From ANME-2 cluster archaeon (GTDB taxonomy: Archaea; Halobacteriota; Methanosarcinia; Methanosarcinales; Methanocomedenaceae), in assembly GCA_014237145.1 (NCBI GenBank), contig JAAXOC010000042.1, positions 1 to 64,000 of the forward strand: a stretch of 64,000 nt of DNA. The letters run 5' to 3'. The position numbers and the translations under genes are program-made. The notes under the pieces were generated by a model. That model ran no database searches. It was not told where the DNA came from and worked only from the letters and a program-made list of their open reading frames with translations. Below are positions 36,501 through 54,751 of the stretch, piece by piece. Each line of letters starts with the position of its first letter. The stretch's first letter is position 1.

Positions 36501-37536
36501 GATCAATGTTACAGCAATGAATCTTGGGGTACATGCTAATGTAAACGATAACATGAGATTAGTTGCATCCGCACCGCCGATCAATGATCCAAACAATTCA
36601 ATGTGCTGGGGCTGCCATGTGCCGGGCGGAGCATACCCCAAGACCGGTCACAACGAGACGTTCAACAACGACGCGTACCTCTGCTATGAGTGCCACAACG
36701 GCACTTATGCATACAACAACGTGAGCAACGCACCCGCGGTCTACAACCATTTCAAGGGCGGCATCGATATCAAAGCACGCACGGATGCCGAGACGAACTC
36801 GACCTCATGCGGATACGGATGCCACAACTTAAGTACGATGAAGGTTCCGGGCTTTGATTCAGGCGGGAATGCGACGTACCGTGTTAACTTGTCGCAGGCA
36901 TCGCATTATGCGATAAGCCGCCCTGACATAGCAAACGAAAGTGGTGGTTACTCTGAGTGCACATGGTGCCACATGGACTCGACAAACGAGTTCATTGATA
37001 TCTTCTTGAATACAGGTCCGCCGAACTACACCGCAAACATCACACATGCGTCAGAGACATCTGGTTGCATTATCCCGGAATGCCATAATAGAGGCAGGAT
37101 ACATGATTCAAATCTTACGATTCCATCAGTGAACTGGTCAGAGTGCGAAAGCTGCCACTTCGGACTGGACAACTCTGATGCGTATGTGAACGAGACGATG
37201 TTCGATGCGAGTGTGCACGGGGGGTTGAACTGCACGATGTGCCATATCAACACGCAGATGAATCACCCTACCAGCGATTATACCTGGAAATGGTGCGAGT
37301 GCTGCCATTCGTATCAAGCAGATCCGATAAACGAAACTGATCGCCATAATGTAACAACCACACCATCCACATATTCGGTCGGAGGAACGAATGTACTCGA
37401 TATCGAGGACTGCACAATCTGCCATAATGCAACAGCATATAATGCTGCTGTAGGTTATTATAATTCTACATATAATTGCAGATATTGCCACGCTTATCCG
37501 GATAAAGGTAACACGACAAGTCAGGAGTGGTACTGA
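30589..37536 (+). CDS. Giant secreted beta-helix/multiheme cytochrome fusion (about 31 CxxCH motifs)
   Basis: A 2315-aa secreted protein. A basic N-terminus and hydrophobic segment (about residues 19-41, cleavage near VVEAAAT) form a signal peptide. Residues about 95-780 are a right-handed parallel beta-helix of the NosD/PbH1 type, with repeated NNITDNNIS-like rungs. From about residue 900 to the end there are 31 CxxCH motifs plus unusual ones: CYDYCH and CGYGCH (three spacers), CIIPECH (four), GCYCHW (one) and a wide LCYTGRTGSLECH. No C-terminal membrane helix is seen, so it may be released or attached to the S-layer. Asn-X-Ser/Thr sites are very frequent. It likely belongs to extracellular electron transfer. 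The carbohydrate-binding-like helix could serve anchoring or cell contact; that is inference. Confidence 0.9.
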   Translation: MIPAVTTGRKYTSRPVRAMSLLATCTCLVVLFVMMCGVVEAAATYDYTITVTDDVDDQWSTNLSNNDSTVNGNIYVENGAVLNLINATIQMGDGFSIIVESGATMNVTSDSIITRDSGYYNFNYNSGSRGHLSASTIEYSYTLQINTTNNITITDCTIHNNQYHGIHLTSASGYVNITDCSIANTVQGHDIFIDSSMNNILRNNSLNNNNGDYSLYVTGNYDQDIDTTNTANGGLVYYNYSDSGTITNENNIGHVTIANCTDLWFTGCTIHNGDGVRIVGSSSSGISGSTFENNAKDGVYFTDSSNNTIKDSHILDNIGNGILSDGTSSDNRIINNSVINNSKGIFLRGIGNNNITDNNISENSDGGISIGSGTEHFGDNIIRNNTILSNSGIGVTFYSNNNDLSENTISGNGNLTLLFESPYYNNYIWRNNTANGEEVNYYHDEHDIIIESKYLSASNVSNVGKITLINCTNIIIRDSVLSNSSKSGYGIFLQNSNNNSLTNNTISNNFYGILLDESSSNNITDLDTISLNWGAQLESNSSYNNITGSTIKSTITNALHISSSDHTTITDTTSSSVDLYGLLTSNAHYINLTNVTISSSFSDGISLLASHHVTIQDGSSITANNTGVHCTNGNNTNIIDTTITAGTDGIYMSESNWGNFTNNNIDAKERGIALNTSRDHNLTANTITNYTSIGVLLKEYSTNTTMIGNDLTRNGAEFDIRINDSNGATFTNNESTAANYIFYLTNDIRLCTLDTVFDKTKVGYEDTSNLTLMWRIDVLCWDNYHLEPMWTNLTVRYRDISDYDESLCWEGETTNANGRLSNNAFGDHGPPTPSSNWLTVIEYKQNVSTKMSYQPMNCTAVNRWDVLNKIYDKRYKNLTTAISGPGVTILVDAGHTPNGKCYYCHEDKLKNADDTWKFPNTRHWNEYNARIMNASLGDPYTPGRCIDCHDETDSTKFPHGTESGKEMLYYPSPQLCYTGRTGSLECHSANATPPLDQENEFNQTTHHPLGDGKLACKACHDNHGSKNRFDLLRYYTNAIIGGYNSSDYALCLVCHLEEKIVAKMSDENGYLANYVNQTNFRDEYYGWDEGFSSMNKPINIHSPQDNSDHPKRNCYSCHNPHGSDNPAIIRNNATDGGPINYTYITNVSSTDNNTAWEVLDYDNWNNTTANKGGGLLYLISSSNGCYCHWDNYGYEMILSEGSFTYREFIDYETAGGAGCLECHDNNASAYNETPIRPIVNLTAIKLAMHTNLSGAFRTGSILQGTDRNFTGWLEYRDYTNEQINNITEDNAICWACHSTNGTPPYPGFHPDRTLNPYKCPKCHGPENGQPPHTQGLVAAIDNHGPTTKGIGTIFIQTDIGSNGSCEDCHAPSVLPESMINPDDNLKVWKWGVGSTGTGDGCITYEGRTTMGNVSHYGLNRLQGEALGIDNPLIDTSDCLLCHCNSTNGAIWGNAPNVTDNMYGANTSNLSECYDYCHVLPDYLYNVTEDTIPHFHNKSLYAGGGFDCVVCHDIDSLYGIKSLIDADAIAAGIHGNVANNTISTILECDPRSKPCWGCHNSNGMQPDGMGDRNLVYEPHKNPWSCEDCHARSDEWNAATSYGETWISSSYPPNRLPPIIYAHYPNSTTLKTNMNGEGRCVDCHNNSINQSHVDTFGQILKNTIRSNVSHYGTTTDLVNPTQDCSICHNTTPENATKWGGALQNNHGNFTDEADVDDGCYVCHTNDEEPSVDFHAANLWSGMGGFECLECHDNDGFAKRKVINGSVYESGVHARMNNATTGSNGTNQSCWVCHFENGMNADRHSMLKDTPYLCYDCHNKAGGPFSNVSDAPEVHNHFKNGTNISAYWTRATDSDSCMGCHNQSEMFYPFNESDTYRTNFSITSHYGDNRTDLVDLFVENNNTAYCSYCHVNTSTPFMEFENDKNIQHAGSQKCNECHGDGRLHNETLTRAQTSGNCTDCHALYGVNKTDTVYEINVTAMNLGVHANVNDNMRLVASAPPINDPNNSMCWGCHVPGGAYPKTGHNETFNNDAYLCYECHNGTYAYNNVSNAPAVYNHFKGGIDIKARTDAETNSTSCGYGCHNLSTMKVPGFDSGGNATYRVNLSQASHYAISRPDIANESGGYSECTWCHMDSTNEFIDIFLNTGPPNYTANITHASETSGCIIPECHNRGRIHDSNLTIPSVNWSECESCHFGLDNSDAYVNETMFDASVHGGLNCTMCHINTQMNHPTSDYTWKWCECCHSYQADPINETDRHNVTTTPSTYSVGGTNVLDIEDCTICHNATAYNAAVGYYNSTYNCRYCHAYPDKGNTTSQEWY

Positions 37537-37542
37537 AAATCT

Positions 37543-37962
37543 ATGATCTCAAAAAGAATAATTATCGCGGGAATCTTAATTATATTGATCATAGGTATAG
37601 CTAATGCTATGCTTTCAGGCAGTCACGAATTATTTAAAACTGAGCCCACTCCGCAGGAATTTTGCAGCAAATGTCACTTGGCATCCGCAGCCAATGTCAG
37701 CGCTGGTGCACACAGCCCGGTAAATTGCCTATGTCATGGATACAATCCAAACTCAAGTTCGGAATATAATGTTAATATGACACATGATCTTACTAAGAAT
37801 ATCTATTGTACAAACTGCCACTCAAAGTATAATGAAACATCCGGAGATATCGTGATCTATAGTGGTATAAGCGGATTAAAACAGTCTGCGCATTATATAA
37901 TTGATAAAACCGACGATCAATTATACAACAACAGCAGGGGGTTTTTCAGTGATCCTGAGTAA
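37543..37962 (+). CDS. Small membrane-anchored cytochrome, two CxxCH plus one CxCH
   Basis: A 139-aa protein 6 bases downstream of the giant gene, so probably cotranslated. The N-terminal anchor IIIAGILIILIIGIANAML leads into a segment (LSGSHELF) shared with the two other small cytochromes nearby. Haem motifs are CSKCH and CTNCH, with NCLCHGY in between, where a single residue separates the cysteines. His residues elsewhere could serve as distal ligands. It could tether or feed the giant cytochrome. It lacks the C-terminal extension of its relatives. Confidence 0.75.
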   Translation: MISKRIIIAGILIILIIGIANAMLSGSHELFKTEPTPQEFCSKCHLASAANVSAGAHSPVNCLCHGYNPNSSSEYNVNMTHDLTKNIYCTNCHSKYNETSGDIVIYSGISGLKQSAHYIIDKTDDQLYNNSRGFFSDPE

Positions 37963-39990: not shown

Positions 39991-40710
39991 ATGAAAGCTA
40001 ATCAGATAATTTTATTGGCAATTGCTATAATTGCAATCGGATTATTCATTATTCCCAGCACGTTGTCAATGTTTGTTGGGACGCACAGTTTTTTCAGCGT
40101 CAGGACAGCTGATGCTCAATACAGAATGTGCGAGAGATGTCACTGGGATGAGGTTGGAGAATGGGAAGCAAATACTGGTGCACATGCTACTTACCGTGAC
40201 TACTACAAGAGTGTACAGGGTGGTGGTGTGGATCCAGGTTGTTTCTGCCACCAGATCAATAGTAGCAGATTAACAAGTTTCCAGTTCGACGTCAGCGGAA
40301 TAGATAATCACAGCTTTGAAATATGGAATGAAAGCGGCGATATCAACAGCAACGATCCTACCACGTGGGAATGGCGAACTAACTCTACACCACATGTTGC
40401 ATTTACTGTTGCGTGTGTAGACTGCCACTATAATGCAAGCACACAGTTAAATAATTCAGCCGAAGCGCATGGATCCTTCTATAATGCTACTCTTAATGCT
40501 ACAGGGATTGGAGTATCTGAAAATACTGCTTGTCTTGCATGTCATAGTATGGTTGGACTGAATATCACGATGCAACGCAATCTGGGTGGACTTGAGATAA
40601 ATGCTAATCACACTAACTACACTGCCGGTAATAGCTGGGAGATAGAGATCAGTATAAATTCAACAAGAACAACAAATAGCACATATTGGGGGGCAAATGA
40701 AACCCGATAG
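39991..40710 (+). CDS. Membrane-anchored cytochrome, three CxxCH plus one CxCH
   Basis: A 239-aa protein with the same plan as those at 37543 and 38076: an N-terminal anchor (QIILLAIAIIAIGLFIIP), then LSMFVGTHSFF and the first haem motif CERCH. A GCFCHQ motif with one spacer residue follows, then CVDCH and CLACH. The C-terminal third is Asn/Thr-rich with several glycosylation sequons. It ends at a strong hairpin terminator. Confidence 0.78.
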   Translation: MKANQIILLAIAIIAIGLFIIPSTLSMFVGTHSFFSVRTADAQYRMCERCHWDEVGEWEANTGAHATYRDYYKSVQGGGVDPGCFCHQINSSRLTSFQFDVSGIDNHSFEIWNESGDINSNDPTTWEWRTNSTPHVAFTVACVDCHYNASTQLNNSAEAHGSFYNATLNATGIGVSENTACLACHSMVGLNITMQRNLGGLEINANHTNYTAGNSWEIEISINSTRTTNSTYWGANETR

Positions 40711-40775: not shown

Positions 40776-41555
40776 ATGTCATATGTTAATCAGATTATCA
40801 ATATAATAATCTACAGTTCATTTTACCTTTATTATAATCATCTATCTCTGTTAATTTTATTTTTTCTAACGCTTTTATTGTTCTATATTTTATATAAAAG
40901 AAATAGTAAATTAGGAATTTTATTCCATTTAATTGGTCCATTCATAAAAAAAAGGCCGTACCAGAACCAGAAAAAAAATATTCAAATCCGGATGAAAAGT
41001 TATAGCAAACTATCCAGAAGACCGAGCATCCTTCAAGTAATAATCCCATTGATCATTACTGGATTGACAGCGTATGTCATCCTAAATCAGCTTGTATTTT
41101 TCGCCATCATAACCTCAGGAAGCATGTCCCCGACCCTTGAAGTAAAGGACCTTGTTCTTATGCAAAACCTGAAGATCGATCCACAGCAGGGAGATATAAT
41201 CATGTTTGAGACAAAAGAGGCAAAAATGCCAGTCATCCACAGGATATATTCTGGTTCGGAAAACGAGATCAGGACAAAAGGTGATGCTGTGGAATTAGTG
41301 GATAACTGGATAATTAAAAAAGATCAGATACAAGGGGAAGCGATGATATTTCAGGGCAAACCTATAGTGGTCAAGGATATTGGTGAATATTTACTGTTCG
41401 ATCCGAATAATGTTCGAATTACCAAGTATGGATCTGAGATGTACAGGGTCAGCCAGATCATAAAGAATATCAAGAGTCTTGGTCTTACAATATTCATAAT
41501 TTGTATATTGCTTTATATTTTCATAAATTTCAGATCCACTGGCAAAAGTTACTGA
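40776..41555 (+). CDS. Signal peptidase I (archaeal SipW/Sec11 type)
   Basis: Membrane-bound signal peptidase of 259 aa. It contains the catalytic serine in ITSGSMSPTLEVKDLVL, followed by GDIIMFET and VIHRIYS. The His replaces the bacterial Lys, as in archaeal and eukaryotic Sec11-type enzymes. DAVELVDNWIIKKDQIQGEA provides the last conserved box. There are two N-terminal hydrophobic segments, one more than usual, and one at the C-terminus. The position just before the giant cytochrome operon suggests a dedicated role in processing it. Confidence 0.85.
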   Translation: MSYVNQIINIIIYSSFYLYYNHLSLLILFFLTLLLFYILYKRNSKLGILFHLIGPFIKKRPYQNQKKNIQIRMKSYSKLSRRPSILQVIIPLIITGLTAYVILNQLVFFAIITSGSMSPTLEVKDLVLMQNLKIDPQQGDIIMFETKEAKMPVIHRIYSGSENEIRTKGDAVELVDNWIIKKDQIQGEAMIFQGKPIVVKDIGEYLLFDPNNVRITKYGSEMYRVSQIIKNIKSLGLTIFIICILLYIFINFRSTGKSY

Positions 41556-41647
41556 ATATTTCTTTAATTTACAGGTAAACGAAATTCTGCCATGAAAAAA
41601 AAAATGAAAGAAATAAATAACATAAACCAACCTATTAATTAATATAC

Positions 41648-42718
41648 ATGACTAAAAAACCAGATATTTCACTTTTAGAAAAATTTAGTATATTATATTT
41701 GTTATTCATGGCAATTTATTTAATATACTTACATTACACGCCGGTGATAGATGTACTGTCAGGTAAAGAATTCAAAGCGCAGGATTTTATTGTGAATCTG
41801 ACTATTGTAATTATTGGGTTATGTGCTTTATGGGGCGGGATTACTCTGGCAAAAAGAGCCATTGCCCAGGAGCAGCTGATTAATATGGGGTTTGAACACG
41901 GGGTATATAACAGGCTTGAGCCCATCCTGCAGGAAATCGCTGGCACTCAGGTTGTGATCGATAAGATGGATGAACAGCTGAACAGTATGAACATCAATAT
42001 AGATCGCCTTAGAAAACGTTCGGTCGAATTGAAGATCCCTGGAACCGAGCCAGCGTTCGGGATCGATATTGCCGCACAGATCTCACGTTTTCTTCGATTG
42101 ATCATATTAATTAACATTACTCTCGCAACATTCATATTTCTCTTAAATTTCACACGCAGTTATACTCCCTTTATACTGACAATGTTGTATATTCTCTGGT
42201 GGCTCGAAATAACCTATGAATACACTCTTTGGGAACGATCATCTGTATATTGGTGGGTTTTTATCCCGATACTTACCATACCAATCACAACAATACTGGG
42301 CGATATAATGTATGGAAGCGGGATTTTGATTGGAGGCATGGGCATCTTACTTGCATTATATGTAAGTGCATATTATACCTGGAGCAAATATATTATCGAG
42401 GGAATTTTACCATTTGATTTGAATAAGCCCATCAGTAGAATTCCCAGTGATAATATAACTTCTTCACATTTCTTTCCATCCAGAATATATTTCATACAAC
42501 ATCATTATAAACTAGGAAAAATTTTAATAACTATCTCGATCATTTTCACATCTTTATTAATAATACAATTATTCAGCGTAAATATATATTACATAAAATT
42601 CCTACCAAATTTTTCACTTGATCAATTTGTATTCTTAGGTATTTTTTCAATAATATTTTATATATTGGGTGTCAGATTGAAGCACAATACAAAAGAAAAC
42701 GAAACGGAGACAATATGA
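41648..42718 (+). CDS. Polytopic membrane protein of unknown function
   Basis: A 356-aa protein with about eight predicted transmembrane helices. Two N-terminal helices are followed by a cytoplasmic coiled-coil-like stretch (residues about 75-130, with IDKMDEQLNSMNINIDRLRK). Then come six more helices, including WWLEITYEYTLWERSSVYWW. No haem or metal motif is seen. Its stop overlaps the start of the giant S-layer cytochrome by 4 bases, so the two are translationally coupled. It may be an export, assembly or anchoring factor for that protein; this is inferred only from position. Confidence 0.65.
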   Translation: MTKKPDISLLEKFSILYLLFMAIYLIYLHYTPVIDVLSGKEFKAQDFIVNLTIVIIGLCALWGGITLAKRAIAQEQLINMGFEHGVYNRLEPILQEIAGTQVVIDKMDEQLNSMNINIDRLRKRSVELKIPGTEPAFGIDIAAQISRFLRLIILINITLATFIFLLNFTRSYTPFILTMLYILWWLEITYEYTLWERSSVYWWVFIPILTIPITTILGDIMYGSGILIGGMGILLALYVSAYYTWSKYIIEGILPFDLNKPISRIPSDNITSSHFFPSRIYFIQHHYKLGKILITISIIFTSLLIIQLFSVNIYYIKFLPNFSLDQFVFLGIFSIIFYILGVRLKHNTKENETETI

Positions 42719-45700
42719 TAAAAATCAACACTGCACGGATATTGTTATTATTTATACTAACGTGCAGTGCAGGTACTGTTGTGGTTCAGGCACAAAATTA
42801 TACTGTGATAATGAACTACGGTCAGACTCCGTATCAACTCGGATACTTAAGTCAGGGAAATGCCACAGGCTGGACATGGTGGGATACTGATGGCGGGATG
42901 CAGCAAAAAAACCTCATTCTGGTAAGTATTATGGAGAATGCCACACCAGTCAGCGGCCTCTCACCACCTGCCTGGACACAAGACAGTTCAGAGAGCCACA
43001 TAGGAAGTCATAGCTGGAAGGCAGGGGAAGGTATACATAGCTGGCATTATCTCGACGACCATACTACATCCGGGACTCCACTAGAGGATATTGTCCTATC
43101 AGGATCCCAGGAAAAACCGGGTTTCTTTGCAAAAACATATATCTGGCTTAACGAATTGATCACAGGTGTTAATTCCGCTGCTGTAGGGCCAATGATCAAC
43201 CTGACATACTGGACTAAGTATGATATGACAGATAATTACGGTTTTGTCAAAGTTTCAGCAGACAGGGGAGAAAACTGGGACACACTTGAAGAATATTCAG
43301 GTAACAGCAATGGATGGGTGGAAAAAACAGTCAACCTGACAAAATATGATGGACAACAAATACTTATAGCATTCTATTTCAGTGTAAATAACAATAACGA
43401 TGAAGAATGGTGGATAGATGATATAAAAGTGATATCAGATGGCAAAGTAATCTTCAGCGATGGTGCTGAAAATCCCCCACCTGTACTCACAGTGAATGTT
43501 ACTTATCCGCATTTCAAATATTCGAGTGGTGATTTCTCAAGTGAAAAAACAACAATAGGCCTTGTGGAGGACTATGCTCATCAGATATATTACGGAGTGT
43601 TCAATTATCCGGATGATGCTTATACTGGTGAATACCAGGTCGATTTCAGCACTACAATAAATTCCAATGATCTTCAGGCATCAACCAGTTTCAGTACCAC
43701 ATTATGGGGCTGCCAGGCAAGAGGCTGCCATGATTCATGGAGTCCAGAGAGCAATCCCTCTGAGCGTAACCCGACAGTTATGATACATCCTGATGACATT
43801 ACATCACAACTAAGTGGAAACTGCCTGAGCGTTTGTCACAGTACCTATTCATCGCAGTTCCTGCGGGCAACTCCCCTTCACCTGCATGACCTAAAATACG
43901 GTCATGAGGGTGGATTTATTTATGGTTCAAGTGGATGGACTACTATCTACAATAACACAAATGCAAACGTGCAGATGTATTATAAAACATCTGTTAAGCG
44001 ACCCATTCCACAGACCACATTCAATGTTGCCTCCCATGTAACAGTGGCAGAATGCACTGACTGTCATACTAATTTTATACATGATGGAAGTGGAAGTGAT
44101 ACCTATGATATCGCCACTCCCGATTCATTAAACGGAATAACATACCAAAATCCAACAGGTGTGCATAACACAGTATCATGTGAAGCATGTCATGGAATCT
44201 ACAGCAAGATTGCAGGGGAGGGGTTATATTACCCGCCATTTGATACCACTAAACAGCTAAGCGATTCGATTGGGGACTATGGACCTGAGTTCATGTCATA
44301 CGAAGCGGTGACAAAAACCTATATAATAAATATGGATAACTCCGGAACAATTGATGTGACCGTAACCGGTGATGATAATGAATATAAAATATTTCTCTCA
44401 CTTATCGGACCGATAGACAATACCAACGGTCTTCAGGATTTAAACACTACTGACCCGTGGGATGGCACCTATTGTGTACCCAGCGTCAATGGAACTGCCA
44501 CATTCGCATTTGGATCAAAAATATATTTTCCATCGGGTGACAAAATTCGCGGTGTTACTTTTGATTCATCTCCAAAAAGCGGTATATGGATAGCCAGGGT
44601 ATTCCCGCGGTCCCCTGGTACTTTTAATTATACAATAACTTCAAGTCATCCGATCCAGCAAAAACCTGTTATTCATATACCATGGAACTGCAGCGAATGC
44701 CACAATCCTGATGCAATCGGAAGTTTAGCAGGAGCTAATACCCTCAAACCCATGCCTTTGTGGGATAACCAGGGATTATCATATACCCATACTGATCATA
44801 ATGACGATGGCAAGGATGACGTTACTTGCAGGTTATGTCATAATTCATTCCATGATATTTCAATTAAGAACTGCACTGACTGCCATATTCAGCGGCCTGG
44901 CGGTCATAACCAAGCGAATTATTATGACATGGGATATACCGGTTGTATGTTCTGCCACAAGGACCCGCATTTTGAACCCGAGGCAGCAGCTGGTGGTAAT
45001 TGCACTGACTGCCATCTGCAGGGTGGTACAAATGCAACATCGGATCTGATAATAAGTAAGGATGGTTTTTTCAATAGTGCACACAACAACATTACAGGAG
45101 ATTTCAATGCCAGCAATTATTCTGATATATCCAGGGTCTGCTGGGGATGTCACGTAAATTATACTGAACAGCTTATAGATCCATTCCATACCAGACGTGC
45201 ATCAGAATTACCTGATTGTGAGGACTGCCACTTTAGTAAAACACCGTTAAATGGCGAAAACCTGAGAAAGATACCGCCCATACAGATCCCTGAACACCAG
45301 CCTATGGGTGTGGATGTCCAGACAAACATATCTACCAACTGTACTTTCTGTCATAACAATTCACTATCCATTTCGATACCGACTACAAATGTCAAATACG
45401 CTGAAGCCAAGAACTATGTTTCTCACTATGTGGATACTGACAATTTAATGACGACAACCAATAATACCACTGACTGTTGGTGGTGTCACTTTGTCAATTC
45501 AGATAATGTTTCATGGGGTATGCCTACAGATCCCTTCAATTCTACCCACTACGATCATACTCCATTAAAACTCTTTAATAGCATCGACTGTTATCCATGC
45601 CATATTTCAAACAAGGTAATGGATAATGGCAATCCACAGGCAGGGTTTACCTTCCATAATGACAGTATGCTCCCCGGTGCCGGAAAATATTGTGTGGACT

Positions 45701-48700
45701 GTCATGATATAGGTGGAATGGTAAATGAAACGTACCAGATCGATGTACAGGCCATGAACATGTCAGGTGCGATACATTATGATCTCAACAGAGTTGCAAT
45801 CGACACAATGGATCCAAATGAAGATCCGAATAACGTACGCTGCTGGGCCTGCCATGGTGACGGAAACCTATCCGAAGCTGCCCAACCCACAGGCCATCCT
45901 GACAATTACAGCACTCCCAAGAACTGCGGTAACAGGGAATGCCACAATTTCAACCAATCGATCTTACATGAACCGATGGTCTATGAGCACATCAGGTATG
46001 TGGATGATATCGACGAGCATGTTAACACAACAGCAGATTGTTCGGTATGCCATAAAAACAGCATCGTGAGCCACGGGGACAATTTAGTTCCTAATGATAC
46101 CTCACTGGTATCACATTACGGATCGACCTGGAACCTGGTAAATACATCAGACTGTATCTACTGCCATCTCGATGAAGACAATGCAGAGGAATGGGGCAAT
46201 GCACCTGATCCAAGAAACCATACGGATTATACCTTTGTTGAAAAAACCCTCATTGCCGGCAGGCCGTGGAAACTTGTGGATAACTATTCCATCACGTTAT
46301 TAGAAACCACAAGTAATGCTGCAATGTTCATCTTTGAAAAAGATGGTGAGCTGCTTGAGCGTGATATCCTATCCCTGGGTGATGAGCTTAATTTCGAGAT
46401 CAGCGGGATAGAAGACGAGAACACCAGTATCGTAAATTTCACAATAACTAAAATATTCAAAGGAAGAGATCCATATGCATATGTTGTTGAGTTGTCTGGA
46501 GATGTGCTTGCATCACGCATCCACAGAGAAACAAATAATATAGCGTGCTATGCCTGTCATGACCGTGAATATCGTACAAATGAACCGGACGGCAGGGATT
46601 ACTATATCCTGGAAAAGGATGATGAAAATGTCACTCTGGGACGTATATATGTCAATTTCGAAGAGAGTGATAAGAAAGTGCTTAAGATGGGAGAATTCTG
46701 GGATCTTGGAGAAGGTTATAATCTTTATGTTGCAGATGTAAACCTGCAAAGCACTGCTACACGGCTGCAACTGTATAAAAATGAAACGCTGGTAGAAGAC
46801 ACAATAATAAAAGAGGGAAGCAATTTCATACATGAAGAACGGGTTTTCGATCGGGATATTAATGTGTTCAGCGCAAAACTGGATATTGTTTTTGTTGGTA
46901 CAACAACCCAGGCTATTATACTAAAGGATGTGAGGCTCATTGCAGGTGAGCAGAAAGTACTTGACGGCGATCTATGGATACTACAGACCAAGAAATTATT
47001 AAGGGACCTGCCGCTGGATAGCGTCATAACAGTTGGAGAAGAAACTGGGACATTCCATGTTTACACTCTTTCACCTGGCGAATACAGTTCGGACTGTATC
47101 AGCTGCCATGCAGGAAATGGAGTAGCCCCCATTAAAATCGATGTGGATACTTTCAAAAAGGGTGTACATGCTTATTTGAATCAAAACGCAACCTGTAACA
47201 CTTTTATCACTGACGAGGCAAATAAAGCATGCTGGGCATGTCACGGCAATGGCAGCGAGCCTGATGAACATCCTACGCCCTACTTAGGTGAGCGCCCGCC
47301 AAAAACCTGTATTAGCTGTCATGGGTACTCGCAATTTGATGCAACGCAGGTATATACACACTACCAGAATGCTGAAATTTCAACAGATTCAACATGCTGG
47401 GACTGCCACTTTAATACTGTCATTAATAGCACCTCTAAAAATGTAAAGGCTGCAACATCCCATGATTCAACACGGGAAGACCTTTTAGATACCTACAGTT
47501 GCGATGTATGCCATAACAATGAAACAAATGCACCCATATGGGGAGATGCACCACAGGTTACAAAACATAATGCAGATAATGACTGCACCCTATGCCATGC
47601 AGGTGAGGGAGTTGAGACATTCCATGACAAAGGAATAACCATAACAAGGAATTGTGAAGATTGCCACGTTGACAAACAACAGGCAAATGAATTCAACCTG
47701 AGTCCAATTATTACACACTATCCGGGTGCACCGGATGATAGTGTAAACACCCTGAAACGTAATGAGTACACCTGTCGTGTATGTCATAACGCTACTAATG
47801 AAACATTACACCTAAACCTTGAAATAAGAGAATACCGAAACGAGACTATGGGCTATTGCTTCCCGTGTCACAGCGTTGAAGGAGAATTCCCCCACAAATC
47901 AGAAGCGTTGATAGAGGTACTGCGTCACGGATCCGGTATAAAAGCTATTTCTGGCTGTGATGCATGTCACTCTCCTGAAGGTATTAGTAAATTCCATACC
48001 CCAACCTTGTTGAGTAAGGGCACTTTTAGAGGCGCGGTCCGACATGACGTTGATTGCCTGGATTGTCATCCTGAACATGAAGGTAAGGAATATCAGCCGT
48101 TTGAAGGCGTACTGTGCGTCGACTGTCACACTGAATACGGTTCAGTCCATTATGCGGGTGCAGAAGTAAAAATGACGAATCAAACCACTACATGTGTCCT
48201 CTGTCATAATGAGGAAGCTGATATATATCATAACCTGACGTACTTTGTGGGCGATATGACAGATGAAGTCCTTGAACCCTGTCGTGATTGTCATAAAGAC
48301 ATCGAATCCCTCAAGGAACATGTCAGGTCATTAAAGATCATAGGGGGAACCATGGCAACCATTTCGCACACAGTATCAGAAGTTACAATAACTTGTGACT
48401 CTTGTCACAATGTCACTGGAGAGAACAGGTTCCACTTTGATTCCTATCCTATGGGTACTGTACAGGACCCTGGCTGGCCGAACTGGACAGCAGGGAATGT
48501 TACAAAATGCAAGGACTGTCATACATATCACGGCGGAGCTACACCTTTCAATGCCACGAATATGGGTACCCAGGGTCTTTCACCCTCGGGTACAGCTCAT
48601 GGTTTGGCACCTAACTGCACACTTTGCCACGGCGGGGCTGACCCTATAAGTTTCCATACTCTGGCAACTTCCCAGTTTATACCTCGTCTGGCAGTTACAT

Positions 48701-49092
48701 TAAATCCTGAAGAAGTATTCCAGGGAGAAACGAGCTTCTTGCAGGCATCAGTAGTGCTTCCAACGCTTACAAAAGTAACGGGTGCTGAATATTTCATTAA
48801 TAATATGGGTAAGGAAGGATACGGGGCGCCTCTGGAATTTGTGGTCGGCGAGTCAACCGATTCATCTGTCTTGCTTGGGGCAGTGATAGAAACATCAGAC
48901 CTATCTACAGGAAAGCATACTATTTTTGTACATGTGAAAGACTCTTCTGGAAAATGGAGCAATGTTGATATCGGTGTGCTCACAGTGAAAAAGCCTGTAG
49001 GACTTGCAATTATTGAGATTTTATTAAGAGATATTGTACCTGCATTAATTTTTATTGCATTGTTATTTTTAATCTGGAGACGCTTTAGATGA
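42715..49092 (+). CDS. Giant S-layer-type multiheme cytochrome (37 haem motifs) with C-terminal anchor
   Basis: A 2125-aa membrane-anchored extracellular cytochrome. It has a signal peptide (residues 1-30), a beta-rich lectin-like region to about 330, and 34 CxxCH motifs between about 332 and 1970, plus CQARGCH, CGNRECH (four spacers) and CLSVCH (three). A beta domain lies near 520-650. Two S-layer-like domains are inserted near 1182-1275 and 1290-1455, with RLQLYKNETLVEDTIIKEG and IDIVFVGTTTQ-like strands (written IVFVGTTTQAIILKDVRL). An Ig-like domain and a single helix (IVPALIFIALLFLIW) ending WRRFR close it. S-layer-fused cytochromes of this kind are a known ANME-2 hallmark and are thought to carry electrons through the cell envelope. 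It is coupled by 4-base overlaps to the genes on both sides. Confidence 0.93.
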   Translation: MIKINTARILLLFILTCSAGTVVVQAQNYTVIMNYGQTPYQLGYLSQGNATGWTWWDTDGGMQQKNLILVSIMENATPVSGLSPPAWTQDSSESHIGSHSWKAGEGIHSWHYLDDHTTSGTPLEDIVLSGSQEKPGFFAKTYIWLNELITGVNSAAVGPMINLTYWTKYDMTDNYGFVKVSADRGENWDTLEEYSGNSNGWVEKTVNLTKYDGQQILIAFYFSVNNNNDEEWWIDDIKVISDGKVIFSDGAENPPPVLTVNVTYPHFKYSSGDFSSEKTTIGLVEDYAHQIYYGVFNYPDDAYTGEYQVDFSTTINSNDLQASTSFSTTLWGCQARGCHDSWSPESNPSERNPTVMIHPDDITSQLSGNCLSVCHSTYSSQFLRATPLHLHDLKYGHEGGFIYGSSGWTTIYNNTNANVQMYYKTSVKRPIPQTTFNVASHVTVAECTDCHTNFIHDGSGSDTYDIATPDSLNGITYQNPTGVHNTVSCEACHGIYSKIAGEGLYYPPFDTTKQLSDSIGDYGPEFMSYEAVTKTYIINMDNSGTIDVTVTGDDNEYKIFLSLIGPIDNTNGLQDLNTTDPWDGTYCVPSVNGTATFAFGSKIYFPSGDKIRGVTFDSSPKSGIWIARVFPRSPGTFNYTITSSHPIQQKPVIHIPWNCSECHNPDAIGSLAGANTLKPMPLWDNQGLSYTHTDHNDDGKDDVTCRLCHNSFHDISIKNCTDCHIQRPGGHNQANYYDMGYTGCMFCHKDPHFEPEAAAGGNCTDCHLQGGTNATSDLIISKDGFFNSAHNNITGDFNASNYSDISRVCWGCHVNYTEQLIDPFHTRRASELPDCEDCHFSKTPLNGENLRKIPPIQIPEHQPMGVDVQTNISTNCTFCHNNSLSISIPTTNVKYAEAKNYVSHYVDTDNLMTTTNNTTDCWWCHFVNSDNVSWGMPTDPFNSTHYDHTPLKLFNSIDCYPCHISNKVMDNGNPQAGFTFHNDSMLPGAGKYCVDCHDIGGMVNETYQIDVQAMNMSGAIHYDLNRVAIDTMDPNEDPNNVRCWACHGDGNLSEAAQPTGHPDNYSTPKNCGNRECHNFNQSILHEPMVYEHIRYVDDIDEHVNTTADCSVCHKNSIVSHGDNLVPNDTSLVSHYGSTWNLVNTSDCIYCHLDEDNAEEWGNAPDPRNHTDYTFVEKTLIAGRPWKLVDNYSITLLETTSNAAMFIFEKDGELLERDILSLGDELNFEISGIEDENTSIVNFTITKIFKGRDPYAYVVELSGDVLASRIHRETNNIACYACHDREYRTNEPDGRDYYILEKDDENVTLGRIYVNFEESDKKVLKMGEFWDLGEGYNLYVADVNLQSTATRLQLYKNETLVEDTIIKEGSNFIHEERVFDRDINVFSAKLDIVFVGTTTQAIILKDVRLIAGEQKVLDGDLWILQTKKLLRDLPLDSVITVGEETGTFHVYTLSPGEYSSDCISCHAGNGVAPIKIDVDTFKKGVHAYLNQNATCNTFITDEANKACWACHGNGSEPDEHPTPYLGERPPKTCISCHGYSQFDATQVYTHYQNAEISTDSTCWDCHFNTVINSTSKNVKAATSHDSTREDLLDTYSCDVCHNNETNAPIWGDAPQVTKHNADNDCTLCHAGEGVETFHDKGITITRNCEDCHVDKQQANEFNLSPIITHYPGAPDDSVNTLKRNEYTCRVCHNATNETLHLNLEIREYRNETMGYCFPCHSVEGEFPHKSEALIEVLRHGSGIKAISGCDACHSPEGISKFHTPTLLSKGTFRGAVRHDVDCLDCHPEHEGKEYQPFEGVLCVDCHTEYGSVHYAGAEVKMTNQTTTCVLCHNEEADIYHNLTYFVGDMTDEVLEPCRDCHKDIESLKEHVRSLKIIGGTMATISHTVSEVTITCDSCHNVTGENRFHFDSYPMGTVQDPGWPNWTAGNVTKCKDCHTYHGGATPFNATNMGTQGLSPSGTAHGLAPNCTLCHGGADPISFHTLATSQFIPRLAVTLNPEEVFQGETSFLQASVVLPTLTKVTGAEYFINNMGKEGYGAPLEFVVGESTDSSVLLGAVIETSDLSTGKHTIFVHVKDSSGKWSNVDIGVLTVKKPVGLAIIEILLRDIVPALIFIALLFLIWRRFR

Positions 49093-51245
49093 TTATTGGG
49101 AACATACTCTTATATATCAGTTTGATATCTTCATGCTTAGCTGCTGTTTATATGTTTACCGGTAGAATAAAAACAAGCATCCAGCTATTAAGAACCGCAG
49201 CTTTTTCAGCAACACTTGCTGTGCTGTTGCTGGCATTTGCCTTTATATTCCTGGATTTCAGTCTGTTCTATGTCTGGCAGCATAGCAGTGCAGAACTTCC
49301 GGTTTTTTATCGGCTGGCTGCTATACTGGTAGGCCAGGAGGGAACGTATTTGATATGGGCATGGCTTTCCATCATAGTAGTACTGCTGTATACAGAACTG
49401 CATGGGATACACGACCGGACAGCTATGATCACTAATGTATATGCCTTAATATGCTGTGCTTTTTTGCTTGTCATGACAATTACAATGACACCTTTTAGAT
49501 CAATATTCGCAGTAAGTGGAGCTTCAATGCCTACTTCAGGAAACAGCATCAGCCCGGAGCTTATTGATATTTTAATGCCGCTGCATATTTTCACGACTTT
49601 TATAGCATATGCGTTTACAATCATTCCTGCTGCCATGTCACTGGCTTATCTCACAAAAAAGAAGAATATGCCGGATAGTAAAAATTATCTCCGTATAGCA
49701 TGGTTATTTTTGAGTATTTGTATAATCGTAGGCGCTATATGGGCTGATCGTCTTTTAGGCTGGAACGGTTTCTGGCAGTGGGACCCGATACAAGCGCTTT
49801 CATTGTGTACATGGCTTTTATTGACAGCTGCCTTGCATGCTGTTGTTCGGTTGAATGTGGGGGAATATAATAGATTGTTCCCACTGTTATGTATCGGGAC
49901 ATTTCTTGGATCTTTATATATGACTTTATTAGCAAGAAGCGATGTTTTTGGTTCCATCCACAGCTTTCCCGGAACACCCACGTGGTGGATGATTGTTGTT
50001 TTTATGGCAATTGTTATTGTTTTTTCATTAATTATGGCTTTAAGGCCTGATAAGACTGAATACACTACATCAGACAGTATTTATATTTTTAAACCATCAA
50101 ATACTTTTTATTTTACCATATTGATATTGATCATGATGGCGTTTATTGCCTTCTGGGGACCGACAGTGTATTTAATTCTCGGTTATATGGGCCGGGAGAT
50201 AATTATTCCAATGGAATTTTATAATATATTGTTTTATCCCCTCGTTGTGGTCCTGTCTTATCTTACCGGTATCTGCTTGCTGTACGGAAGAGTGAGGAGC
50301 CGCACACTGGCATATGTTGGCATTATTTATTTCACCATATCCATTATACTCGCTGTAGCAGTACCGTACGGCACCCATTCTGTAGCAGCATCCTATACTG
50401 GTTCATCTTTTGAAAAGATATTAGGCTCAATTTCTGTTACTTCTTATATACCTGCTTTTTTCTTTGTTACAGGTAGTGTTATATTTAAAATGGTCAGAGA
50501 TTTAAAGGTAAATAATAAAACAGCATTAATTCATCTAAATGGAATCAATCTTATTCATGTTGGATTTGTTTTCATTGTTCTTGGTGCCATTCTAAGCACT
50601 TCCTTTGCGACTTCGCACCATTTTAGTTATAGTTTATCCGAAAAGGGTGAATATAAAGAAGATGAAGGTATAGTTTTGCGGTTTTTGGATTATAGAGTTG
50701 AGAAGATAGGTTCGGACTGGTATCAAACCGTAGATGTTGAAATATTTGACGATAGTGAGTATAAAGCAAGTCCTGTTTTTTTGAAAAGTCGACAATTTGG
50801 ATATATTACCCGCCCGGAAGTAAGACACGGTTTGCTTTCAGATACCCAGATTGAATTCCATGGAACTCTGCCACACCAGATTGAGCTTGAAACTATCGAA
50901 ATAAATATTAAAAAGCAGCCATTTGCAATTTTTATGTGGAGTGGATGTGTGCTGCTGATCGTAGGTGTGTTACTCACACTTTCATCTGATGTTATTCGCA
51001 GAAAAGGATGGATATTGTCATACCTGAAATTTGTCATGAGTAAGCCTGTATCTGATATTCTACCTTTTGAAACAAAAGAATGTAAGATATTAACTTTATC
51101 TATTCCGGTAGCTGTTATCATAGGAACTGTCATAGCCATCTTTGTGTATGAAATGCTGGGTTATTTGTATGCTTTTTATGTGATTCTGGGCGGGGCTGTT
51201 ATCGTATCTGTAATTACTTATCTATTAAAATTCAGAAAATCTTGA
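49089..51245 (+). CDS. ccmF: CcmF-type cytochrome c haem lyase
   Basis: Polytopic membrane protein of 718 aa with about 15 helices that attaches haem to apocytochromes. It carries the WWD-type haem-handling motif GWNGFWQWDPIQALSLCTW near residue 224, HisHis-type loop residues flanking it, and the earlier GQEGTYLIWAWLS near 81, as in CcmF. The C-terminal periplasm-like domain (VLRFLDYRVEKIGSDWY) is also typical. Its start overlaps the stop of the giant cytochrome gene by 4 bases, so the lyase is made together with a major substrate. No other ccm genes are in the window. Confidence 0.92.
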   Translation: MIIGNILLYISLISSCLAAVYMFTGRIKTSIQLLRTAAFSATLAVLLLAFAFIFLDFSLFYVWQHSSAELPVFYRLAAILVGQEGTYLIWAWLSIIVVLLYTELHGIHDRTAMITNVYALICCAFLLVMTITMTPFRSIFAVSGASMPTSGNSISPELIDILMPLHIFTTFIAYAFTIIPAAMSLAYLTKKKNMPDSKNYLRIAWLFLSICIIVGAIWADRLLGWNGFWQWDPIQALSLCTWLLLTAALHAVVRLNVGEYNRLFPLLCIGTFLGSLYMTLLARSDVFGSIHSFPGTPTWWMIVVFMAIVIVFSLIMALRPDKTEYTTSDSIYIFKPSNTFYFTILILIMMAFIAFWGPTVYLILGYMGREIIIPMEFYNILFYPLVVVLSYLTGICLLYGRVRSRTLAYVGIIYFTISIILAVAVPYGTHSVAASYTGSSFEKILGSISVTSYIPAFFFVTGSVIFKMVRDLKVNNKTALIHLNGINLIHVGFVFIVLGAILSTSFATSHHFSYSLSEKGEYKEDEGIVLRFLDYRVEKIGSDWYQTVDVEIFDDSEYKASPVFLKSRQFGYITRPEVRHGLLSDTQIEFHGTLPHQIELETIEINIKKQPFAIFMWSGCVLLIVGVLLTLSSDVIRRKGWILSYLKFVMSKPVSDILPFETKECKILTLSIPVAVIIGTVIAIFVYEMLGYLYAFYVILGGAVIVSVITYLLKFRKS

Positions 51246-52244: not shown

Positions 52245-52347
52245 CTACAGTAAAGTATATACTTTCCAATACATTCAAAAATAAAAATGCAGATGGGAAA
52301 AACCCATCTACCCGGCCCATGAAAATATTCAGAATTTACGCATCCTC

Positions 52348-52673
52348 TCACTCTAAAGGCCAGTTCTTCTCCATCCAACCCGGTATCCTGCCGCTATCTG
52401 GCGGTCCGATCTTCACCTTCAGTCCACTGGCATCCTCCATGTCACCCTGCAAACGGACAGCCAGTCCCGGTAAAATGACCGTATTGTGCCCAGTCATCTC
52501 GCCGAAATCGAAACCAACCATCTTAAACTCATCAGACACCTTCTGCCCTGTCATCTGCCCATCTGCCACCGCAGTCTCCACACCAAGTCCGTCAGTATCT
52601 GTAGCCAGCAGGTAACAGTCAATACCGCTACTGGCCAGGTCGCTCTCTACAGTACAATAGGTCAATGTCTGTT
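52348..52673 (-). pseudogene. cdhE fragment, C-terminal about 104 codons
   Basis: Encodes only the end of the corrinoid iron-sulfur protein large subunit, from CTVESDLASSGIDCYLLATD to GRIPGWMEKNWPLE, about 90 percent identical in DNA to the end of the longer copy at 53818. It has no N-terminal domains and no start signal. Homology to the other copy begins near 52331 and stops near 52673. It is a duplicated scrap, not a functional gene. Confidence 0.8.
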
Positions 52674-52728
52674 TGGTTCATGTGACTCTATAAACAAAAT
52701 ATAATTTTCCAATACTCTCAGATATATT

Positions 52729-53223
52729 TTATATATTATCAGCAAAAATTTCTTCAAATCGTGTTATTCTTGTCCGGTCATTTTTTTCAATATTGCTAAT
52801 CAAAGTTTCAATTTCTTTCCTGCCAAGTAAGCGCTTGATATAGCATAACCTGAATATGTCGACAATATCCAACCACTCCACACCAACATCTTTGCAATAC
52901 ATCTTCGCCTTTTTATCATTGGTAGCGAAATCTACGCCCTCTTTTTTACACAAGAGGATGGATGTCAGTTCACCGGCATGGAGATATGTTAATTTTTCTT
53001 TCATATGTTCATACTCCCGGGTTAAATCAGAGTCCAGATGGATGACCTTGAACCTTTGCTTTAGGATATCGTCAACAAAATCATACCCTACTTCCTTTGC
53101 TATTAAAAGTTCGTTATACACTTCAAAAGTAATTGCAAGGTTCGTTTCTGGAAATAGTCTTCTCAACAGATCTGCTTTGCCTATCTTACCAAGCATGCTC
53201 AAAATATCTGTATCGAAGATCAT
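52729..53223 (-). CDS. PIN-domain toxin
   Basis: A 164-aa PIN-fold ribonuclease-type protein. The acidic metal-binding set is visible as the Asp in MIFDTDILSML, Glu in FEVYNELL, Glu in LHAGELTSILL and Asp in VDFATNDKKAK. Such toxins cleave RNA. The antitoxin gene lies 2 bases upstream, so this is a type II toxin-antitoxin pair. It is placed between two fragments of cdhE. Confidence 0.82.
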   Translation of the reverse strand: MIFDTDILSMLGKIGKADLLRRLFPETNLAITFEVYNELLIAKEVGYDFVDDILKQRFKVIHLDSDLTREYEHMKEKLTYLHAGELTSILLCKKEGVDFATNDKKAKMYCKDVGVEWLDIVDIFRLCYIKRLLGRKEIETLISNIEKNDRTRITRFEEIFADNI

Positions 53224-53225
53224 GT

Positions 53226-53531
53226 TCAGAGGTATTTTTTAAGTTTCCTGTCCATTTCTACAGCCTGTCTCGCCTCTATCTCCCGCATAATTCCCCGTTT
53301 ACCCAATATATCTTTAAATTCGATTGTAGTCACTCCAGCCATTTCAGCTGCCTTACTTAAGGATACTTCTTCTTCTTTATAAAGTTCTATCGCTGCATTA
53401 ACCTTCAGTTCCGCATTCTCCCTGAATAGACTTCTCATGGCATCTTTTATTACTTCTAATTCACTCGAATAATACCCCGCATTCACCAGTGCCTTCACTT
53501 TCCGATCCACACTAACTGACTGCGCTTCCAT
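53226..53531 (-). CDS. UPF0175-type antitoxin
   Basis: A 101-aa helix-turn-helix protein resembling UPF0175 antitoxins. It has an N-terminal ribbon-helix-like part (QSVSVDRKVKALVNAGYYSS), then ELYKEEEVSLSKAAEMAG and a recognition-like helix TTIEFKDILGKRGI. It is the antitoxin partner and probable repressor of the downstream PIN gene, with a gap of 2 bases. Confidence 0.78.
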   Translation of the reverse strand: MEAQSVSVDRKVKALVNAGYYSSELEVIKDAMRSLFRENAELKVNAAIELYKEEEVSLSKAAEMAGVTTIEFKDILGKRGIMREIEARQAVEMDRKLKKYL

Positions 53532-53700
53532 TATTTATGCACCTCTTAATCATAATAAGATTATTTTTCTTATAATAAAATCCTTTCCTTCCCGATCAAC
53601 CAACAGACAACGATATATTTAACTGGCAATTCAAATCGTGTCACCACAAATACACATCCGGTCCACAATACCGGAAGAGGCGGGCATTGAGAAGGATTAA

Positions 53701-53745
53701 ATTATTCCCAACTGCACCGCCTGCCATAACGCCACGCAGTATAAC
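53701..53745 (+). pseudogene. Relic of a multiheme cytochrome gene
   Basis: Fifteen codons reading IIPNCTACHNATQYN, with the haem motif CTACH at 53713-53727. It resembles the CTICHNATAYN near the end of the giant protein at 30589. A TAA stop precedes it in frame at 53698-53700 and no other haem motif follows. It is a scrap of a lost or transferred cytochrome gene. Confidence 0.55.
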
Positions 53746-53817
53746 ACAAAAGATAAGAAATATCGATTAAATTTCGTTATCAAATATTCCTTAACGTAAC
53801 AGAATTTACTTATCCTC

Positions 53818-54751
53818 TCACTCTAAAGGCCAGTTCTTCTCCATCCAGCCAGGTATCCTACCACTATCTGGCGGTCCTATCTTAACCTTCAATCCGCTGG
53901 CATCCTCCATGTCACCCTGCAAGCGGGCAGCCAGTCCCGGAAGAATGACCGTATTGTGAGCGGTCATCTCGCCGAAATCAAAACCAACCCTCTTAAACTC
54001 ATCAGACACCTTCTGCCCTGTCATCTGCCCGCCTGCCACCGCAGCTTCCACACCAAGGCCGTCAGTATCGGTAGCCAGCAGGTAACAGTCAATACCGCTA
54101 CTGGCCAGGTCGCTCTCTACAGTATAATAGGTCAATGCAAAGTTGGTTGTCACGAAAACAGGAGAATCCTTGCCAGGCGAACCCACCTCATACACCTTTG
54201 GGTCCACCTTTACAGGCGTCCTCGGGTCAGTGTAGATAGTATCCCTGATATGCAGCTCCGGCAGCAGGGCATAAGGCTCGATACTGTGTACTATCATGAT
54301 ATCACCGTAACGCACCGAGAATACCGATGCCAGTACGGTCTCCCAGTAACTGGCAGAAACAGGGTCGTCATTGGCAAGGTATGCCGTCATAGGCACTGCC
54401 AGCAGCGGGAAAGCAATATCACGCTGCCCTTCCCTGATTCCGGCACGCCTTATCATAAGGAAATTCTCAAATGATTCCCGTAGCGACTTCCCCTGCGGAT
54501 TTGTGCCAGGGTCAAGTACCAGGTCCTCACGTCTCATCTCCAAAAACGTAGCTGTCAGGCTCTTTAACGTATCCAGGTCGTCAGGAGAGAATAGTACCAG
54601 TGGTACATCGTACTCCATAACCAGGTCGGCCACGCTCATGGTATCCCAGACATCCACAGCAAGTGCAGGCTGGTTAAAGAATGTAAGCTGGTGACGGTAT
54701 AGTATATCATCGCCACCCCCCATTTACAGTAGTTTTTCCAACATACACTTT
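53818..54751 (-). pseudogene. cdhE: Truncated, frameshifted cdhE (acetyl-CoA decarbonylase/synthase gamma subunit)
   Basis: CdhE is the large corrinoid iron-sulfur protein subunit that carries the methyl group in the Wood-Ljungdahl pathway; the intact protein is about 470 aa with an N-terminal 4Fe-4S domain. Here 301 codons from 54723 cover only the later barrel and C-terminal cobamide-binding region, with YRHQLTFFNQPALAVDV, TNFALTYYTVESDLASSG and RLQGDMEDASGLKVKIGP. Upstream of 54723 another frame reads VYVGKTTVN, which also belongs to CdhE, so an indel in the six-base G-run at 54716-54721 broke the frame. Homology ends near 54751. The functional gene must lie elsewhere. Confidence 0.8.

Follow-up and report, generated by a model that had tools for sequence, protein, structure and literature searches.

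Two described systems come closest to the locus reported here. The first, shown in Fig 12B of Chadwick et al. 2022 (PMC9012536), is a gene cluster that encodes CcmF2, ANME MHC-B, an '8x TMH' protein and a signal peptidase; in the part of that paper available to us, CcmF2 always adjoins ANME MHC-B, the peptidase and '8x TMH' genes lie immediately upstream in ANME-2a, 2b and 3, and the '8x TMH' gene occurs in every ANME group and in Syntrophoarchaeum, Argoarchaeum, Geoglobus and Ferroglobus. The same part of the text proposes a haem-handling role for the '8x TMH' protein, interprets the CcmF as dedicated to MHC-B, annotates the haem-free N-terminal region of MHC-B as peptidase-M6-like, and gives the MHC-B product as a presumed conductor of electrons across the S-layer (PMC9012536). 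The second is the cytochrome nanowire of Archaeoglobus veneficus, AvECN (PDB 8e5g; Baquero et al. 2023, as cited in PMC12954529 and PMC12203936; also PMC11176372), in which three of the four haems are reported to take their distal His from another subunit (PMC12203936). An account of the secretion or assembly of archaeal cytochrome nanowires was apparently absent from the literature searched. Assembly of other surface filaments is gated by a protease dedicated to the protomer, namely prepilin peptidase/PibD for type IV pili and OzpA for OmcZ of Geobacter.

The locus lies in a window of 64,000 nucleotides (the whole stretch of DNA analysed, from an ANME-2 cluster archaeon), and its features are given in Table 1. 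The four-gene cluster as such is already known, so its finding in the earlier note is a rediscovery, and the four open reading frames and the two overlaps of 4 bases described there were all confirmed, with the membrane protein gene at 41648-42718. The assignments as a Sec11-type signal peptidase (TIGR02228, 57.5 bits in comparison to a cut-off of 51.85; PF10502 also above its cut-off), as a 37-haem S-layer cytochrome (34 CxxCH, one CX3CH and two CX4CH motifs; PF07752 in 2 stretches) and as a CcmF-type lyase (CcmF/NrfE-like; TIGR00353, E 5e-49; PF01578 and PF16327) also held. The remaining gene had been called an unknown eight-helix membrane protein; its product indeed had no match to any Pfam or NCBIfam family, and it has seven to eight helices of transmembrane (TM) length, the eighth (~174-192) being weakly hydrophobic in the window copy. 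Both overlaps recur in relatives down to ~55-60% protein identity and are therefore not due to chance, which supports the proposal that the membrane protein is translated together with MHC-B and CcmF2.

Table 1. Features of the locus, with positions in the window; a slash marks a predicted cleavage site
Feature	Start	End	Strand	Remarks
Second small cytochrome	38076	38843	+	Same N-terminal signal (VVPDILS/MFTGGH), different body
Small, putatively tetrahaem cytochrome, AvECN (PDB 8e5g) homologue	39991	40710	+	phmmer vs PDB, E 5.1e-13, residues 3-224
Predicted signal peptide of small cytochrome	39991	40068	+	Predicted cut S26/M27 (IIPSTLS/MFVGTH)
Hairpin and T-run (terminator- or attenuator-like)	40709	40730	+	9-pair stem, TTTTTC tail, in small cytochrome/peptidase gap
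Dedicated signal peptidase I (S26, Ser-His-Asp type)	40776	41555	+	Extra N-terminal TM and basic linker
Membrane protein core	41648	42427	+	Six TM helices and ~80-residue coiled-coil loop, predicted cytoplasmic (41-member alignment)
Two extra C-terminal TM helices	42428	42718	+	Complete only in MHC-B-linked copies
4-base overlap, membrane protein/MHC-B	42715	42718	+	Kept in 8/9 loci
ANME MHC-B type S-layer cytochrome	42715	49092	+	37 haem motifs, MAM-like N-terminal domain, C-terminal TM
4-base overlap, MHC-B/CcmF2	49089	49092	+	Kept in 7/9 loci
CcmF2-type haem lyase	49089	51245	+	CcmF/NrfE-like, adjoins MHC-B

Absent from the earlier note was the small cytochrome gene at 39991, which lies on the same strand directly upstream of the peptidase gene at a distance of 65 bases. 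On evidence that is wholly comparative, we consider it somewhat probable that the locus combines two modules in one co-directional string, namely a nanowire-processing module (the genes at 39991, 40776 and 41648), which would be the older and more widespread of the two, joined in ANME-2 to an MHC-B/CcmF2 module. The peptidase and the membrane protein would then more likely serve the upstream small cytochrome rather than MHC-B, because the pair co-occurs across genomes with a nanowire-type cytochrome and the MHC-B signal peptide looks ordinary (VVVQA/Q).

The small cytochrome matched 8e5g over its whole length. It has three CxxCH haem motifs (C47ERCH, C142VDCH and C181LACH) and, where the second motif would be expected, C84FCH, a putative haem motif of the form CXCH. 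It also carries four conserved His beyond these motifs (32, 65, 135 and 160), which fit the distal His contributed by other subunits in AvECN (PMC12203936). A relative of the Geoglobus/Ferroglobus type matched 8e5g at E 2.7e-49. The cytochromes neighbouring the peptidase/membrane-protein pair have a common N-terminus, which consists of a hydrophobic stretch, the pattern P-x-[TAV]-x-S-[LM]-F-x-G-Q-H-x-W-Y and then the first haem motif, and the signal-peptidase-I-like site within it, P-x-[TAV]-x-S/[LM]-F-x-G-Q-H, has a small residue at -1 and an allowed residue at -3 in 56 of the 66 cytochromes collected. This N-terminal segment is far better conserved than the remainder, with a median normalised score of 0.50 in comparison to 0.13, a difference inflated by the motif-based selection. 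The results also showed that the N-terminus profile, which did not contain 8e5g, matched this one chain only in the PDB (E 3.5e-17). The AlphaFold model of the small cytochrome (pLDDT 41, pTM 0.29) was too weak for fold comparison. The second small cytochrome had no match to 8e5g or to any other PDB chain at E <= 1.

The C-F-C-H form of the putative second haem motif (40240-40251, codons 84-87) was observed in several ANME-2 genera and also in loci L017, L048 and L049, and loci L015 and L018 have CxxCH; a similar CLCH is carried by 37543-37962. A hairpin occupies the same position, with a different sequence, in L015, L017, L018, L048, L049 and L050, making seven loci with the window, which could be explained if the filament subunit is made in excess over the peptidase, with partial read-through downstream.

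For the peptidase, the score over the cut-off and the catalytic Ser-His-Asp place it in archaeal signal peptidase I, with little or no variation at S116, H155, D170 and D176 among relatives. It belongs to a subfamily that is set off by a score gap, since 47 of the 295 genomes had matches of 239-333 bits and the next best match was 88 bits. Two further signal peptidases are encoded in the same genome, which together with the ordinary signal suggests that MHC-B would not need a dedicated peptidase.

To describe the distribution of these genes, we searched at two levels, the family (17 genomes) and the phylum (295 genomes), thus covering one phylum. The membrane protein was found in 9 of the 17 family genomes and in 50 of the 295 phylum genomes, in comparison to 52 for the nanowire-type N-terminus and 47 for the peptidase subfamily, and all three were present in 46 of the 55 genomes having any of them, the exceptions being mostly incomplete genomes or weak matches. 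Given as genomes with both, the first only, the second only and neither, the counts were 46/4/1/244 (phi 0.94) for the membrane protein and the peptidase subfamily, 47/3/5/240 (phi 0.91) for the membrane protein and the nanowire-type N-terminus, and 47/0/5/243 (phi 0.94) for the peptidase and the N-terminus, from related genomes, so that p-values overstate the independence. The controls were looser, with phi 0.59 for cytochrome c7 (PF14522) and 48/2/103/142 for the haem-lyase domain PF01578. The N-terminus table was 18/0/2/29 and 21/1/3/12 inside the single families f6 and f7, respectively, and 19/2/1/86 by genus. Because genes in the vicinity of the membrane protein supplied the profiles for the N-terminus and the peptidase, this co-occurrence is not wholly blind; nonetheless, those profiles recover genomes in which the genes of the trio lie apart. 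In genus g28 (G031, G067, G074, G092 and G119), the membrane protein gene stands alone and the peptidase gene lies about 20 bases or less from a nanowire-type cytochrome gene, so that the links within the trio do not rest on one common neighbourhood.

The peptidase gene and the membrane protein gene lie no more than 3.5 kb apart, in the same or opposite orientation, in 29 of 42 loci, and a small cytochrome gene is as near to the latter in 24 of 42. MHC-B was found beside the membrane protein only in close relatives, namely genera g1 and g4, one genome of g3 and the GoM-Arc1 genome L018. Elsewhere, the membrane protein gene lies among small multihaem cytochromes, pilin-like genes (g52) or unrelated genes (g28 and g56), and in some Archaeoglobi-like genomes it has no cytochrome within ~10 kb. 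The earlier note had proposed to ask whether the gene occurs only beside giant cytochromes; in the inspected loci it does not, as MHC-B adjoins it in just 7 of the 42. The presence of the family in so many genomes of the phylum goes most of the way towards the occurrence without cytochromes that the earlier note had named as speaking against it, although at the genome level the family is not 'widespread without cytochromes', as it co-occurs with the dedicated signal peptidase and the nanowire-type small cytochrome.

These neighbourhoods bear most directly on the idea of the earlier note that the cluster is a self-contained unit which makes, processes and places the giant cytochrome alone. The gene order and the overlaps in the ANME-2 loci agree with it, and for MHC-B and CcmF2 it stands; for the peptidase and the membrane protein it does not, since most genomes have this pair without MHC-B or CcmF2, and the two further signal peptidases could process MHC-B with its ordinary signal. 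As an account of all four genes it is largely refuted by the distribution, and we regard it as very improbable.

In L074 and L082 (g52), and partly in L077 (f31), the peptidase/membrane-protein pair adjoins five or six pilin-like genes and not nanowire genes, the pilin-like genes being DUF7287, DUF7288 and DUF7266 with VWA, and in L074 also DUF7289. The pair may have other clients there, or a more ancient function connected with pilin-like proteins.

Relatives of the membrane protein outside the MHC-B loci stop after the sixth TM helix (250-310 aa), and a partial C-terminal extension with one helix is present in L065/L066. P92, A98, W184, W185, P212 and Y242 are invariant among 41 members of the family. 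Among the short loops, the odd-numbered ones are poor and the even-numbered ones rich in Lys/Arg, a distribution that would place the coiled coil in the cytoplasm. The family profile gave coiled-coil matches only in the PDB, and an AlphaFold model built on six closely related sequences (pLDDT 48, pTM 0.26) was too weak for fold comparison. Several candidate identities were considered for this protein. An Oxa1/EMC3-like insertase was unsupported (a single weak EMC3_TMCO1 match, E 0.05, in 1 of 41 members), as was an archaeosortase/exosortase (no conserved Cys column in the family), and a factor specific to giant cytochromes was ruled out by the gene neighbourhoods. Tandem partial matches (two, in one frame) to residues 149-255 were seen in G109:C60:12859-13467 and G302:C174:3741-4352, suggestive of a duplication within the helical part.

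The composition of the membrane protein also bears on the published interpretation that it and the peptidase are general maturation factors of multihaem cytochromes, with the membrane protein handling haem and the cluster maturing MHC-B (Chadwick et al. 2022, as given in the part available). The spread over the ANME and related groups named above, the adjacency to MHC-B/CcmF2 in ANME-2a/b/3 and conserved Trp are reported in that part of the paper (PMC9012536), and the conserved 4-base overlap with MHC-B observed here points the same way. However, the family has no conserved His column (the best is shared by 17 of 41 members), which argues against a haem-handling protein, as such a protein needs His ligands; neither these nor a Trp-rich external loop of the WWD type were found, the one large loop being free of Trp and the conserved Trp lying in or beside helices, on the cytoplasmic half in the topology predicted from the charge distribution. 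A haem-handling protein is thus rejected on present evidence. In addition, there are methanogens with Ccm and multihaem cytochromes that lack the membrane protein, and cytochromes at large co-occur with it less tightly than the nanowire-type cytochrome does. We therefore judge general maturation to be unlikely.

The tight co-occurrence with the cytochrome would also be expected if the membrane protein exchanged electrons with the nanowire cytochrome, as a quinone or methanophenazine oxidoreductase subunit might, and the peptidase were a mere frequent neighbour; the invariant Trp pair and the Tyr in the membrane could line a quinone site. The link to the peptidase subfamily is equally tight, however, the pair remains linked in L074 and L082, which have no nanowire gene nearby, no cofactor-binding motif was found in the membrane protein, and subunits of this type do not usually carry a coiled coil in the cytoplasm, which leaves such a partner decidedly improbable.

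The MHC-B gene has the features of the published type, with PF07752, the 37 motifs, a C-terminal TM helix, the first haem motif at residue 333 and an InhA-like MAM domain (PF20773). An active metalloprotease in its N-terminal 'peptidase M6-like' region is unlikely, because HExxH occurs nowhere in the sequence. MHC-B had no sequence match in the PDB. The published type has a single haem motif in the linker between its S-layer halves; a candidate for it is C1278, which belongs to the sole CxxCH between residues 1147 and 1461 and precedes the best S-layer stretch (1315-1411). The adjoining lyase shows a WWD motif and, at positions 166, 250, 291 and 490, four His of the CcmF type, and it matched Thermus CcmF 6zmq at E 1.3e-20; family, motif, His ligands and the adjoining MHC-B gene all agree with CcmF2, a label that rests on neighbourhood and score.

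Upstream, 30589-37536 encodes a second giant cytochrome with 31 CxxCH, two CX3CH and one CX4CH and a right-handed beta-helix N-terminus (NosD/Beta_helix), features fitting ANME MHC-C, and MHC-C, the small cytochromes and MHC-B all lie inside 21 kb. Downstream, on the minus strand, 58741-61251 encodes an 836-aa tetratricopeptide-repeat protein of about a dozen repeats, some scoring as the CcmH/CycH TPR type, which is probably a generic TPR protein. Also on that strand, 52348-52665 nearly repeats a stretch of 53818-54723 and looks like a truncated duplicate of its C-terminal part (region 52319-54723), with a PIN-like gene pair of toxin-antitoxin type (52729-53531) between the two.

Returning to the two-module reading, a possible sequence of events can be outlined. 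Sec would export the small cytochrome, the Ccm system would attach its haem, and the dedicated peptidase would cut after P-x-T-x-S, exposing the conserved LFxGQH N-terminus. A correct free N-terminus could be required for polymerisation, because most haems of the A. veneficus filament take a His of the neighbouring subunit. The membrane protein may recruit, present or assemble the protomers jointly with the peptidase, and in ANME-2-like archaea, where the MHC-B/CcmF2 module would be tied by translational overlap to the end of the nanowire module, its two extra C-terminal helices may couple that module to MHC-B, the presumed S-layer conduit. We tentatively suggest that the peptidase, freeing an N-terminus that docks on the neighbouring subunit, and the membrane protein, as an assembly platform hard-wired to the S-layer conduit of ANME-2, form a biogenesis machine for AvECN-type nanowires. 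Such a role for the two proteins was not found in the literature searched, the scope of which did not include Baquero et al. 2023, the likeliest source.

If the trio is a biogenesis module, two genes are named that can be deleted or expressed, and the trio would mark, at the genome level, those archaea that form nanowires (ANME-1, ANME-2, Geoglobus/Ferroglobus-like and others). It would also suggest a way in which ANME-2 link their long-range wires with the S-layer conduit through which electrons pass to partner bacteria during methane oxidation.

In comparison to the cluster of Chadwick et al. 2022, the cluster in the window is alike in its four genes, their order, the S-layer domain, the MAM-like N-terminal region, the C-terminal TM helix and the CcmF2 adjacency; the part of that text available to us assigns the peptidase and the 8x TMH protein to cytochrome maturation or haem handling, and it does not include the link to a nanowire-type cytochrome, the six-helix core with an MHC-B-specific extension or the conserved hairpin. 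With AvECN (PDB 8e5g), the small cytochrome shares homology over the whole protein, the N-terminal signal, the predicted mature start and the conserved His; it has three CxxCH motifs and a putative fourth of CXCH form, and filament formation is known for AvECN, whereas the ANME-2 protein is a putative filament subunit. PibD and OzpA embody a similar idea of dedicated protomer processing, which we infer here, but they belong to other peptidase families. The window peptidase is like the archaeal Sec11-type signal peptidase I (TIGR02228) in its catalytic Ser, His and Asp and in its above-cut-off score, and unlike it in belonging to a subfamily set apart by its high scores, which has a further TM helix at the N-terminus and a basic linker and is present only together with the nanowire-type cytochrome.
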